In this document: positions 11,544 to 58,718 of the stretch, piece by piece
How positions within the stretch are numbered: position 1 is the stretch's first letter
How the letters are laid out: the number at the start of each line of letters is the position of its first letter
NCBI RefSeq assembly: GCF_001655615.1
Contig: NZ_CP011567.1
Location: 5,651,001-5,715,000 of the forward strand
Direction of reading: 5' to 3'
DNA length: 64,000 nucleotides
DNA from: Pseudomonas sp. GR 6-02
Lineage (GTDB): Bacteria > Pseudomonadota > Gammaproteobacteria > Pseudomonadales > Pseudomonadaceae
Translations under genes and position numbers: made by a program
Notes under the pieces: model-generated
Databases searched by the model: none
Seen by the model: the letters and a program-made list of their open reading frames with translations, nothing else
What the model was told of the DNA's origin: nothing

Positions 11544-11640
11544 TGTGGCGAGGGAGCTTGCTCCCGCTGGGTTGCGAAGCGACCCCGAAACGGTTTTACG
11601 ACTGCTCCGCAGCCGAACGGGAGCAAGCTCCCTCGCCACA
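11544..11640. repeat. REP-like inverted pair (family A, copy 2)
   Basis: The left arm (11544-11568) is identical to the arm at 1510; the right arm (11617-11640) is its reverse complement with a change near the inner end. Located in the intergenic space after holA. Confidence 0.88.
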
Positions 11641-24687: not shown

Positions 24688-25959
24688 TCAGAGCGACTCC
24701 TGGCCGCGCAGCTGACCGTCACCGACCACGATGTACTTCTCGCAGGTCAGACCTTCGAGGCCCACCGGGCCGCGGGCGTGCAGCTTATCAGTAGAAATGC
24801 CAATCTCGGCACCCAATCCGTATTCGAAGCCATCGGCGAAGCAGGTCGGGGTGTTGATCATCACCGAGGACGAATCGACTTCAGCCACGAAACGCCGGGT
24901 GTCAGCCAGGTTTTCGCTGACGATCGAGTCGGTGTGATGGGAGCCGTACTGGTTGATGTGCTCGATAGCCTGGTCCAGCCCGTCGACCACGCGGATCGAG
25001 AGGATCGGCGCCAGGTATTCGGTAGTCCAGTCTTCTTCAGTGGCCGCGACGGCCTCGATGATCGCCCGGGTGCGCTCACAACCGCGCAGCTCGACGCCTT
25101 TTTCGCGGAATTGGGCAGCCATCGCCGGCAGAAACTCTTTGGCAACTGCCTGATCGACCAACAGGGTTTCCATCGCGCCGCAGATGCCGTAACGGTAAGT
25201 CTTGGCGTTGAATGCGATGCGCTGGGCTTTCGGCAGATCGGCGTGGGCACTGACGTAGACGTGACAGATGCCGTCCAGGTGCTTGATGACGGGCACGCGG
25301 GCATCGCGGCTGACCCGTTCGATCAGGCCACGGCCGCCGCGAGGCACGATGACGTCGACGTATTCGGGCATGGTGATCAGCGCGCCGACGGCGGCACGGT
25401 CGGTGGTTTCGACCACTTGCACCACCGCGGCCGGCAGATCGGCCTCGGCCAGGCCGCGCTGGATGCAGGCGGCAATGGCGCGGTTGGAGTGAATCGCTTC
25501 GGAGCCGCCACGCAGGATGGTCGCGTTGCCGGACTTCAGGCACAGGCTGGCAGCATCGATGGTCACGTTAGGCCGGGATTCGTAGATGATCCCGATCACG
25601 CCCAACGGCACGCGCATCTTGCCGACCTGAATGCCCGACGGCCGGTAACTCATGTCGCGGATCGCGCCGACCGGGTCCGGCAAGGCCGCGACCTGACGCA
25701 AACCGACGATCATGCCGTCGATGCGCGCCGGGGTCAGCGCCAGGCGTTCCAGCAGGGCCGGCTCAAGACCATTGGTGCGGCCAGCGGCCAAATCCAGTTC
25801 ATTGGCTGCGGTCAGCTCGGCGCGCGCAGCATCCAGCGCATTGGCGGCCGCCTGCAAGGCGCGGTTTTTCTGCGCGGTGCTGGCACGGCCGATCACGCGG
25901 GAAGCTTCGCGGGCGGCGCGACCCAAACGGGTCATGTAGTCAAGAACGGACTCAGTCAT
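24688..25959 (-). CDS. proA: gamma-glutamyl phosphate reductase
   Basis: NADPH-dependent second step of proline synthesis, aldehyde-dehydrogenase superfamily. The 423-residue protein has the catalytic cysteine in [43 protein letters not shown] and the [12 protein letters not shown] loop. The ATG at 25959 ([20 protein letters not shown]) is the family start; the frame extends 33 codons upstream as non-coding sequence. First gene of the proA-nadD-rsfS-rlmH group. Confidence 0.97.
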
Positions 25960-26081
25960 GGTCTGCTGTGGTCTTGGTAAAGAGGAAAGCGGCAGATTAT
26001 AGCTGTCGCGTCTCGGGACTAACAGCGGTGACGGGCGGATGGTCGAAATGGAAGGCAATTTGCCGACGTTCAGCCGTGACC

Positions 26082-26349
26082 AGGGGGCGCTCTCAATGAG
26101 TTTCCCCGCCGCGTTGTCGCCTTAATGCGGGCCAGGCAAGGCGCAGGCCGCTGGGAATGGTTGTTCCCTTTCCAAGGCCTGCAACGCAGCCTGGCCCGCT
26201 TTAAGGCACAACCCGAAGGGCCGGGCCTGCTGTTGTGCAGGGCTGCGTTGCTCGAAGCTTATTTGGAATGACCAAACCACGCTTCTCGCGCCTTGCCCTG
26301 CACAACAGCAGACCCGGCGCGGCGGGGAAACTCATTGAGAGCGCCCCCT
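26082..26349. repeat. 268-bp nested inverted-repeat element with 32-bp perfect terminal arms
   Basis: The terminal arms 26082-26113 and 26318-26349 are perfect 32-bp reverse complements (outer end AGGGGGCGCTCTCAATGAG). Inside are two further dyads: 26119-26137 with 26189-26207 (19 bp, one mismatch; GCCTTAATGCGGGCCAGGC) and 26221-26243 with 26295-26317 (23 bp, one mismatch; CCGGGCCTGCTGTTGTGCAG). A three-way-junction fold is possible. A competing long-range pairing is 26134-26143 with 26288-26297. No open frame of note and no clear target duplication. It fills most of the 442-bp proA-mpg gap. Confidence 0.9.
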
Positions 26350-26401
26350 TAGCATATTGTTATCATCACGACTCAATCAGCCCTGATAAACGCTGTTCAT
26401 C

Positions 26402-27100
26402 ATGACTAACCTGACTGTTCGTGCGTCCGAAACGCGCCCGCCCAAGGCTCTGCCGGATGCATTTTTCGACCGCGACGCCCAAACGCTGGCCCGGGATCTG
26501 CTGGGCAAAATCATCCGCCACCGGGTCGACGACCTGTGGCTCAGCGCCCGGATTATCGAGACCGAAGCCTATTACTGCGAAGAAAAGGGTAGCCACGCCT
26601 CCCTGGGCTACACAGAAAAGCGTAAGGCTTTGTTTCTGGATGGCGGCCACATCTATATGTATTACGCCCGCGGCGGCGATTCCCTGAACTTCAGTGCCCA
26701 AGGTCCGGGCAATGCGGTGCTGATCAAATCCGCCTATCCATGGGTCGATGAACTGAGCGGGCCAGCCAGCCTGGCGCAGATGCTGCTGAACAATCCCGAC
26801 GCCCAGGGCCGCCCTCGCCCCTCGCAAAAGCTGTGCGCCGGGCAGACGTTGCTGTGCAAGGCGCTGGGGCTGAAGGTGCCGGTCTGGGACGCCAAGCGTT
26901 TTGACCATGAAGTGCTGCTGGTGGAAGACATCGGGCCTGCGCCCGGCCATATCATCCAGACCACACGCCTGGGCATCCCCCAGGGGCGCGACGAACATTT
27001 AATGTACCGTTTCGTCGATGCGGCTTACGCGCCGTACTGCACTCGCAATCCGATGCGTCGGGGTCAGGTCGAAGGGCGCGATTATTTTTTGCTGACTTGA
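26402..27100 (+). CDS. mpg: DNA-3-methyladenine glycosylase, AAG/MPG type
   Basis: Base-excision repair glycosylase of the mammalian AAG fold that removes alkylated and deaminated purines. The 232-residue protein shows DPARDLLGKII-like ARDLLGKIIRH, the catalytic ARIIETEAYYCEEKGSHAS with the Glu, MYYARGGDSLNFSAQGPGNAVLIK and the C-terminal RFVDAAYAPYCTRN. Position follows the proA/nadD block as in P. aeruginosa. It stands alone with the nested repeat immediately upstream. Confidence 0.93.
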   Translation: MTNLTVRASETRPPKALPDAFFDRDAQTLARDLLGKIIRHRVDDLWLSARIIETEAYYCEEKGSHASLGYTEKRKALFLDGGHIYMYYARGGDSLNFSAQGPGNAVLIKSAYPWVDELSGPASLAQMLLNNPDAQGRPRPSQKLCAGQTLLCKALGLKVPVWDAKRFDHEVLLVEDIGPAPGHIIQTTRLGIPQGRDEHLMYRFVDAAYAPYCTRNPMRRGQVEGRDYFLLT

Positions 27101-37791: not shown

Positions 37792-37903
37792 TGTGGCGAG
37801 GGAGCTTGCTCCCGCTCGAGTGCGAAGCGCTCGCCAAAAATCATGACCGGCAGACATTTCTGGACTGCTTCGCAGCCAAGCGGGAGCAAGCTCCCTCGCC
37901 ACA
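37792..37903. repeat. REP-like inverted pair (family A, copy 3)
   Basis: Arms 37792-37816 and 37879-37903 are perfect 25-bp reverse complements apart from flanks, the same unit as at 1510. It lies in the 452-bp eatR-exaC gap, between the eatR start and the predicted activator site. Confidence 0.9.
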
Positions 37904-38184: not shown

Positions 38185-39705
38185 ATGCGTTACGCTCACC
38201 CCGGTACTGAAGGCGCTATCGTTTCGTTCAAGAGCAAATACGGTAACTACATCGGCGGCGAGTTCGTCGCGCCTGTCAAAGGTCAGTACTTCACCAATAC
38301 TTCGCCGGTCAACGGCCAACCGATTGCCGAATTCCCGCGCTCCACTGCCGAAGACATCGAAAAAGCCCTGGACGCCGCCCATGCCGCCGCCGATGCCTGG
38401 GGCGCCACGTCCGCCCAGGCACGCTCGCTGGTGCTGCTGAAAATCGCCGATCGCATCGAACAGAACCTGGAACTGCTGGCGATCACCGAATCCTGGGACA
38501 ACGGCAAGGCCGTGCGTGAAACCCTCAACGCCGACATCCCGCTGGCCGCCGACCATTTCCGCTATTTCGCCGGTTGCATTCGCGCCCAGGAAGGCAGCGC
38601 CGCCGAGATCGACGGCAATACCGTGGCCTATCACATCCATGAACCGCTGGGCGTGGTCGGGCAGATCATCCCGTGGAACTTCCCGATTCTGATGGCCGCC
38701 TGGAAACTCGCTCCGGCCCTGGCCGCCGGTAACTGCATTGTCCTCAAACCTGCCGAGCAAACCCCGCTGGGCATTACTGTGCTGATGGAGCTGATCGGCG
38801 ACCTGCTGCCACCTGGCGTGCTCAACGTGGTGCAAGGCTTCGGCAAAGAAGCCGGTGAAGCCCTGGCCACCAGCAAACGCATCGCCAAGATCGCCTTCAC
38901 CGGTTCGACTCCAGTCGGCTCGCACATCATGAAATGCGCCGCCGAAAACATCATTCCATCCACCGTGGAGCTGGGAGGCAAGTCGCCGAATATCTTCTTC
39001 GAAGACGTCATGCAGGCCGAACCGTCCTTCATCGAGAAAGCCGCTGAAGGTCTGGTGCTGGCATTCTTCAACCAGGGCGAAGTTTGCACCTGCCCGTCCC
39101 GCGCCCTGGTACAGGAGTCGATCTACGACGAGTTCATGGAAGTTGTCATGAAAAAAGTCCTGCAGATCAAGCGTGGCGACCCGCTGGACACCGACACCAT
39201 GGTCGGCGCCCAGGCGTCCGAGCAGCAATTCGACAAAATCCTTTCGTACCTGGACATCGCCAAGGGCGAAGGCGCCGAGCTGCTGACCGGTGGCAAGGTG
39301 GAAAAACTCGAGGGCAGCCTGGCGACCGGGTATTACATCCAGCCGACCCTGCTCAAGGGCACCAACAAAATGCGCGTGTTCCAGGAAGAAATCTTTGGCC
39401 CGGTGGTGAGCATCACCACCTTCAAGGACGAAGCCGAGGCCCTGGCCATCGCCAACGACACCGAGTTCGGCCTGGGTGCCGGCCTCTGGACCCGCGACAT
39501 CAACCGCGCCTACCGCGTGGGCCGCGCCATCAAGGCCGGTCGCGTGTGGACCAACTGCTACCACCTGTACCCGGCACATGCCGCGTTCGGTGGTTACAAA
39601 AAGTCCGGCGTCGGCCGTGAAACCCACAAAATGATGCTCGATCACTATCAGCAGACCAAAAACCTGCTGGTGAGCTACGACATCAACCCGTTGGGCTTCT
39701 TCTAA
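38185..39705 (+). CDS. exaC: NAD-dependent acetaldehyde/aldehyde dehydrogenase
   Basis: Oxidises the acetaldehyde released by ethanolamine ammonia-lyase to acetate. The 506-residue protein has the ALDH motifs [20 protein letters not shown], the general-base VELGGKSPN and the catalytic cysteine in [12 protein letters not shown], and the C-terminal [24 protein letters not shown] of the ExaC/AcoD group. The ATG at 38185 ([10 protein letters not shown]) follows AAGGAGA; the open frame extends far upstream across the promoter. First gene under sigma-54 control. Confidence 0.95.
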
Positions 39706-39713
39706 AAACCGGG

Positions 39714-39741
39714 GGGCGATACAGGTATTTCTGTATCGCCC
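39714..39741 (+). terminator. hairpin after exaC
   Basis: GGGCGATACAG (39714-39724) pairs perfectly with CTGTATCGCCC (39731-39741), loop six bases. It would reduce read-through from exaC into eat; no strong T-run follows. Confidence 0.65.
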
Positions 39742-39750
39742 TTCAGAAGG

Positions 39751-39774
39751 CCATCGCGGGCAAGCCCGCGATGG
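39751..39774. repeat. short REP palindrome (family C)
   Basis: CCATCGCGGGCAAGCCCGCGATGG is a near-perfect palindrome: CCATCGCGGG and CCCGCGATGG with a CAAG centre, a word common between genes of pseudomonads. A single copy of this type was seen in the window. Confidence 0.75.
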
Positions 39775-39886
39775 TGCCCTTAAACGCCTCCTTCATCGCT
39801 CTGCCGGTCTGGCATTGGCTTTGCATTCCCGCTCTACACACTGAATGCCATACCCGAAAGTCCAACAAATCAAACAATAAAAAAGA

Positions 39887-58586: not shown

Positions 58587-58718
58587 TGTGGCGAGGGAGC
58601 TTGCTCCCGCTGGGTAGCGTAGCGGCCCCAAAACCATACATCGCGTTTATTCAGGCCTACCGCGTCCAGAGGCTCGCGACTGCTGCGCAGCCGAACGGGA
58701 GCAAGCTCCCTCGCCCCA
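58587..58718. repeat. REP-like inverted pair (family A, copy 4)
   Basis: Left arm 58587-58611 is identical to the arm at 1510; right arm 58695-58718 is its reverse complement with two changes (tcgccccaag). It separates the mag operon from xseB. Confidence 0.87.

Follow-up and report, generated by a model that had tools for sequence, protein, structure and literature searches.

A Pseudomonas MITE with probable IS5-family ends and a conserved two-module core, inserted between proA and mpg

The usual definition of a bacterial MITE rests on its ends and treats the core as unimportant; a REPIN is a REP hairpin with a RAYT-type tag at its ends. REPINs and the REP-RAYT system resemble the element reported here in forming a geneless inverted hairpin pair, but they differ from it in sequence, size and ends. 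Insertion sequences (ISs) of the IS5 family (NF033580 type; ISPa67-like, Marinobacter and P. veronii) have the same outer ~16 end bases, with CTAG/TA at the ends; they carry their own transposase gene and no detectable hairpin core, whereas the arms of the MITE pair over 26-32 bp. MITEPsy1 of P. syringae is likewise a small IS5-like MITE in Pseudomonas, with CTAG or YTAA as its target, but the passages available from its description give a 100-nt, ISPsy2-related element with an 18-nt TIR and a 4-nt duplication, and describe no two-module core (PMC3189936). MITEAba12 of Acinetobacter likewise shares its TIRs, but not its interior, with an IS; it is 113 bp long with a 16-bp TIR and a 9-bp duplication, and a multi-hairpin chassis goes unmentioned in the available text (PMC6382973). 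TIMEs resemble our element in size (~262 bp), in their long TIRs, in having conserved stretches within the core and similar predicted folds, and in occurring in Pseudomonas; what sets them apart, by description rather than by sequence, are 38-bp ends of the Tn3 family and 5-6 bp duplications, according to the passages seen (PMC4133298). The R6, R26 and R200 repeats of P. fluorescens are also intergenic, from the same genus and 177-352 bp long, R6 having 34-bp inverted repeats, in a comparison based on the published description (PMC2718517). Stem-loop families such as Pae-1, a double hairpin, and Ppu-1 are likewise intergenic structured repeats of Pseudomonas, distinguished from the element by their described sizes (84 and 617, respectively) in the excerpts at hand (PMC2267715).

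The element occupies positions 26082-26349 of the window, the 64,000-nucleotide stretch of DNA that was analysed, and lies between the divergent genes proA and mpg. It is 268 bp long, and its 32-bp perfect arms enclose two near-perfect dyads.

24688-25959, minus strand: proA (glutamate-5-semialdehyde dehydrogenase), divergent neighbour
26080-26081, no strand: left insertion flank, CC followed by the arm's A; empty sites in relatives read ATTAAG here
26082-26113, plus strand: left terminal inverted repeat and outer stem P1, class AGGGGGCGYTCTCAAT, from the inverted-repeat check, class members and IS ends of the same class
26114-26212, plus strand: module 1 (HP1, stem P2), a 19-bp dyad with one mismatch (26119-26137/26189-26207) and an inner hairpin, from fold, repeats and covariation
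26135-26144, plus strand: box 1 of module 1, GGCAAGGCGC, at an internal loop that is partly unpaired
26155-26168, plus strand: tip of module 1, GAATGGTTGTTCCC (family form GGTNNTTCC)
26181-26190, plus strand: box 3 of module 1, GCAACGCAGC
26208-26227, no strand: centre, ACAACCCGAAGGGCCGGGCC, the most conserved segment and the axis of the inverted modules
26213-26317, minus strand: module 2 (HP2, stem P3), a 23-bp dyad with one mismatch (26221-26243/26295-26317), inverted homologue of module 1
26242-26251, 26261-26277 and 26288-26297: box 3', tip and box 1' of module 2
26318-26349, minus strand: right terminal inverted repeat and outer stem P1, matching the left arm perfectly by the inverted-repeat check
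26350-26352, no strand: right flank, TAG after the arm's final T, remnant of a TA/TTAA target
26402-27100, plus strand: mpg (DNA-3-methyladenine glycosylase), divergent neighbour, starting 52 bp past the element

The arms are complementary at 32 of 32 positions, and the inverted-repeat check bore out both these arms and the two one-mismatch dyads described in the initial annotation. A long-range pairing of 26134-26143 with 26288-26297 had also been proposed; the pairing is present, but its left coordinates were one base off, and it joins 26135-26144 to 26288-26297 (GCGCCTTGCC). This cross-pairing between the dyads occurs because each hairpin is the inverted homologue of the other. The element has no transposase gene, as had been recognized from the outset, and the longest ORF wholly within its 268 bp is 52 aa. 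Folded as single-stranded RNA it reaches -204.3 kcal/mol, against -113.0 +/- 5.0 kcal/mol for 200 dinucleotide shuffles (z -18.2), none of which was as low. The view that it belongs to none of the short repeat families of the window also stood: all other perfect 20-bp inverted repeats within 320 bp in the window lie at four places (1510-1641, 11544-11640, 37792-37903 and 58590-58715), separate from the element, and are inverted pairs of a different family, GTGGCGAGGGAGCTTGCTCCCGC, with spans of 97-132 bp. We take these pairs to be REPIN-like.

All 12 relatives that are readable at the proA-mpg spacer have one ATTAAG in place of the element; 15 loci were read for the empty site, 12 of which cover the spacer and three of which (L328, L331 and L332) do not. 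Among the matches listed for the 144 relatives searched, one match spans flanks and element together, and it comes from the own genome only. By comparison, the empty sites in relatives show that the element was inserted into this spacer. The initial annotation saw no clear target duplication, which is correct for the window copy, whose flanks (CA/TT) are not a clean duplication, but does not extend to the family: TA...TA brackets 88 of 156 distinct flank pairs, with 68 pairs of other kinds, in a count limited to copies with GGG/CCC ends, which excluded 15, and at empty sites the sequence is ATTAAG. Some copies (L017, L028) lie within terminator-like palindromes of the host, L028 between GCGGACAGC...GCTGTCCGCTTTTTTTT; such palindromes may therefore be favored or tolerated targets.

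The own genome, a single contig of 6.5 Mb, has the family at six places, including partial copies and two cousins. A second full copy (G000 39585-39852) is 96% identical and in opposite orientation; a copy with an internal deletion measures 166 bp (2111360-2111525), and a 60-bp copy consists of arms only (5863828-5863887). The cousins, at 348469 (L005) and 1629315 (L004) of G000:C1, have different arms, of the classes AGGGCGTGCTCACC and AGGGTCTGTTGACG, respectively. Relatives of the element were found in at least 13 of 38 related genomes and, with a divergent copy as query, in at least 66 of 149 genomes of the genus; since only the best 20 candidates per genome (38 relatives) or the best five (149 genus genomes) were scored, these counts are lower bounds. 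Among the matches listed, which sample the taxa and are named by record title, cores occur in Pseudomonas, Stutzerimonas, Azotobacter, Halomonas, Chromohalobacter, Salinicola, Alcanivorax, Serratia and Kosakonia and in several gamma- and betaproteobacterial MAGs; the arm classes among them are many. The enterobacterial copies from Serratia (L178, L185) and Kosakonia (L183, L209) have AGGCTGTGTCCC- or AGGTTGTATCCC-like ends, and a Kosakonia copy used as query gave no match in E. coli. Two queries likewise gave no match in 50,697 phage records. A single copy lacking compensatory change, which had been put forward as the observation that would speak against a mobile or functional element, is not what was found: copies are many, and their stems covary.

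Of 183 near-full copies, 151 measure 266-270 bp; the set was chosen as near-full, with ends extended by the family model, and omits matches that fall short of model position 30 or 240, matches ending less than 60 bases from the end of a locus, exact duplicates and any sequence containing N. The modules run in the order GGCAAGGCGC - GGTNNTTCC - AACGCNGC, then its reverse complement, around CAACCCGAAGGGCCGGG. Because modules 1 and 2 are inverted homologues, the family model scores the listed copies nearly equally on either strand, and each strand bears one sense and one antisense module. In a covariation alignment (A1) of 38 of 164 copies (<80% identity) together with the window copy, compensatory change was seen at 85 of 91 predicted pairs, compared with a shuffle mean of 55.3 and with 52-63 when the structure was slid along the alignment. 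Paired cells amounted to 93.3%, whereas shuffling gave 69.8% and sliding no more than 43.0%, and the covariation score was 0.599, against 0.167 shuffled and at most 0.111 slid, with none of 500 shuffles reaching it; the structure was derived from the same sequences, which makes the slid control lenient, and related copies are not independent, but the gap is still large. These data indicate very clearly that the paired architecture, as predicted, is conserved. Apparently orthologous copies at one locus (L019, L029, L030, L070 and L117) carry matched changes, and another set of copies (L018, L130 and L131) carries unmatched ones. Mean conservation in 106 copies of <93% identity was 0.81-0.92 for the boxes, tips and centre versus 0.72-0.77 for the stems and arms, and the boxes stay partly unpaired in the family alignment, a pattern that speaks for selection on some of the core at least and suggests that a protein may read the boxes.

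The arms behave differently from the core. Among copy pairs with core identity above 84%, arm identity falls below 55% in 230 of 1575 (173 copies, not thinned), while an arm fits the partner in its own copy at 0.962 of outer pairs, versus 0.625 for the partner in another copy; the own-arm fit is at least 0.9 in 152 of the 173 copies. These comparisons show that arms are exchanged in matched sets around a core that is retained. This is the reverse of the usual MITE pattern: constancy lies in the core and variation in the ends. The chassis is not described in the literature searched, which comprised titles, abstracts and passages, with subscription papers, ISfinder and supplements outside its scope. 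An IS5-family MITE is thus a known kind of element; the combination of a deeply conserved core with interchangeable ends is new as far as the searches go. If the core has an activity, it would show how a non-autonomous element outlives transposases and changes its helper.

Candidate helpers were identified through their ends. A search of five genomes for paired ends recovered, in G012 and G077, an 857-bp IS with AGGGTCTGTTGCCGTTTC ends, the common sister class of arms; it carries an IS5-family transposase 94% identical to the one named ISPa67 on a Raoultella plasmid, and the same arm class forms the ends of the ISPa67-like ISs L136, L157 and L158. At E 1e-30 the ISPa67-like transposase was found in 13 of 249 genus genomes, so the MITE is much commoner than this helper in the samples. 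For the arm class of the window, a search of plasmids for the arm end gave a match of 20 of 21 bases (E 3, weak alone) that falls exactly at the end of a Marinobacter plasmid IS (L293 3001-3835). This IS is 835 bp long, with two ORFs, the left end CTAGGGGGCGTTCTCAAT and a right end that has three mismatches to the left-end pattern. Its nearest plasmid relative, from P. veronii (L342 934-1772), is 839 bp long, has the ends CTAGGGGGCGTTCTCATT / CTAGGGGGTGTTCTCATT and two ORFs, and encodes a transposase ORF 83.6% identical to that of Marinobacter. Over 16 bases the window arm differs from the Marinobacter ends at one and four positions and from the P. veronii ends at two and three, and the element therefore shares its terminal inverted repeats with autonomous elements. 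A third arm class, TAGGGCCTGTTAAC (up to ...ACTA), forms the ends of ISs on three plasmids (L339-L341). L136, L137 and both Marinobacter ORFs exceed the cut-off of NF033580 (IS5 family); the assignment of the P. veronii IS to IS5 is by similarity and that of L339-L341 by annotation only. ISPa67-like L136 has one ORF where the Marinobacter and P. veronii ISs have two. The IS427 group of the IS5 family, in the passages seen, is given a TA duplication and a two-ORF transposase (PMC4133298).

A transposase more than 80% identical to the Marinobacter type was found in only two of the 249 genus genomes. In G241 the same end lies beside a 96% identical transposase at a contig end; no matching end was found in G141 (L303, 82% identical transposase) or at L304. 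The own genome yielded no IS whose ends match. The core gave no match better than E 0.31 in or beside ISs (26 loci and seven more), which lends no support to the element having arisen from these ISs by simple internal deletion. In G126, eight elements of 51-52 bp consist of the two arms, and further derivatives of 51-202 bp occur in G012, G131 and G160. Their junctions differ, which points to several separate deletions of the core, and the derivatives suggest, without proving it, that ends alone may suffice for transposition.

Of the mobile element, structured RNA and protein target that the initial annotation had put forward, the MITE is best supported, being tied to IS5-family ISs by its matching ends, and the element most likely borrows an IS5-type transposase. 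We consider it very probable, as a whole, that the element is an IS5-superfamily MITE served by a helper in trans, with an older chassis, exchanged ends and pairing at the level of DNA. The IS5-family transposase of an IS with CTAGGGGGCGTTCTCA-type ends, supplied in trans, would have recognized the outer part of both arms and, to judge from the matching ends, inserted the element at a TTAA/TA site in the proA-mpg spacer; the host presumably has since lost the helper IS, or never had it. Inside the ends, the chassis of two hairpin modules, inverted homologues around a CCCGAAGGG centre, is older and wider in distribution than any single set of ends, and the two ends are swapped jointly for those of other IS5-family transposases. 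Template switching from arm to arm, selection on a hairpin or cruciform in the DNA, or the two in combination would keep arms and stems matched. A more specific 'hermit-crab' reading, in which the two-module, DNA-folding core is itself the unit of inheritance, is selected as single-stranded or cruciform DNA read by a protein and persists because it repeatedly takes on whatever matched IS5-family ends are available across gamma- and betaproteobacteria, is tentative and on balance doubtful.

Very strong covariation, a very stable fold and an intergenic position would all be expected of a structured RNA (a leader, sRNA or attenuator) that happens to spread and whose RNA fold is selected. Selection at the RNA level should give an excess of G.U over A.C, yet none was seen in 90 copies flanked by genes in tandem: their outer stems, oriented by the transcribed strand that a simple ORF caller (the second of two used) assigned and counted without a positive control, contain 6005 Watson-Crick cells, 126 G.U, 129 A.C and 187 other combinations, with no wobble preference (p 0.90). 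With either strand presenting one sense and one antisense module, and an Rfam search returning three matches up to E 1, each far below its gathering score, we regard the RNA reading as improbable; the pairing instead looks, with due caution, to be kept at the level of DNA. Here the model strand, as distinct from the transcribed strand, gave 103 G.T and 71 A.C in the outer stem of 106 copies, and 174 G.T and 172 A.C over all three stems together. The near-equality of the 126 and 129 mismatches on the transcribed strand is also what would be seen if the pairing had no function, and the element were an ordinary MITE in whose large palindromes replication template switching re-matches the arms. 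Template switching can create and maintain stems, according to the portion of the source available (PMC8794818), and CA...TG flank pairs number 8 of 156 against ~1.4 expected if both sides had decayed independently, although at least two of the eight (L021 and L050) look orthologous. Such a reading is quite possible, but it sits less easily with the higher conservation of boxes, tips and centre, with boxes that stay partly unpaired, where free re-matching should erase such mismatches, and with the narrow range of lengths, albeit among near-full copies with model-extended ends. Template switching is a confounder for RNA covariation, and a DNA family such as this would pass a naive RNA covariation test; its many natural variants lend themselves to testing whether compensatory palindrome changes reflect selection or template switching.

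Conserved boxes that recur in inverted order in both modules would also fit a core that is bound by a host or nucleoid protein and merely distributed by mobility. Derivatives of 51-82 bp without both hairpin modules are, however, scattered in G126, G012, G131 and G160, so hosts tolerate loss of the modules, and we think this explanation unlikely. A REPIN or other RAYT-mobilized palindrome, which would account for an intergenic, geneless, inverted hairpin pair with internal loops, is scarcely credible given the TAGGG/CCCTA ends, the TA flanks, the match to the ends of IS5-family ISs and the different sequence of the window's REPIN-like repeats. Membership of the REPINs was rejected on the TAGGG...CCCTA ends, and that of the TIMEs (Tn3-derived MITEs) on the IS5-type ends and TA flanks.

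Two further signals were considered and set aside. A within-module strand asymmetry of 48 versus 23 in 39 sequences fell to 97 versus 75 (p 0.11) with 106 less redundant copies and was dropped. For gene orientation, a first, crude ORF caller placed 36 of 168 copies in convergent gaps, without bias, whereas the second gave a deficit of convergent gaps (16 of 159 versus 41 of 207, p 0.013); as the two callers disagree, nothing is drawn from orientation.

Some copies depart from the common form. Subfamilies of ~281-283 bp are represented by L149-L151 (G126), L240, L277 and L288, and the three G126 copies contain an additional arm of ~16 nt within module 1. An IMG/VR contig filed as viral (3300022695_000189) carries two copies, L291 and L292, with other arms (GGCTCATATCTTATGCC).
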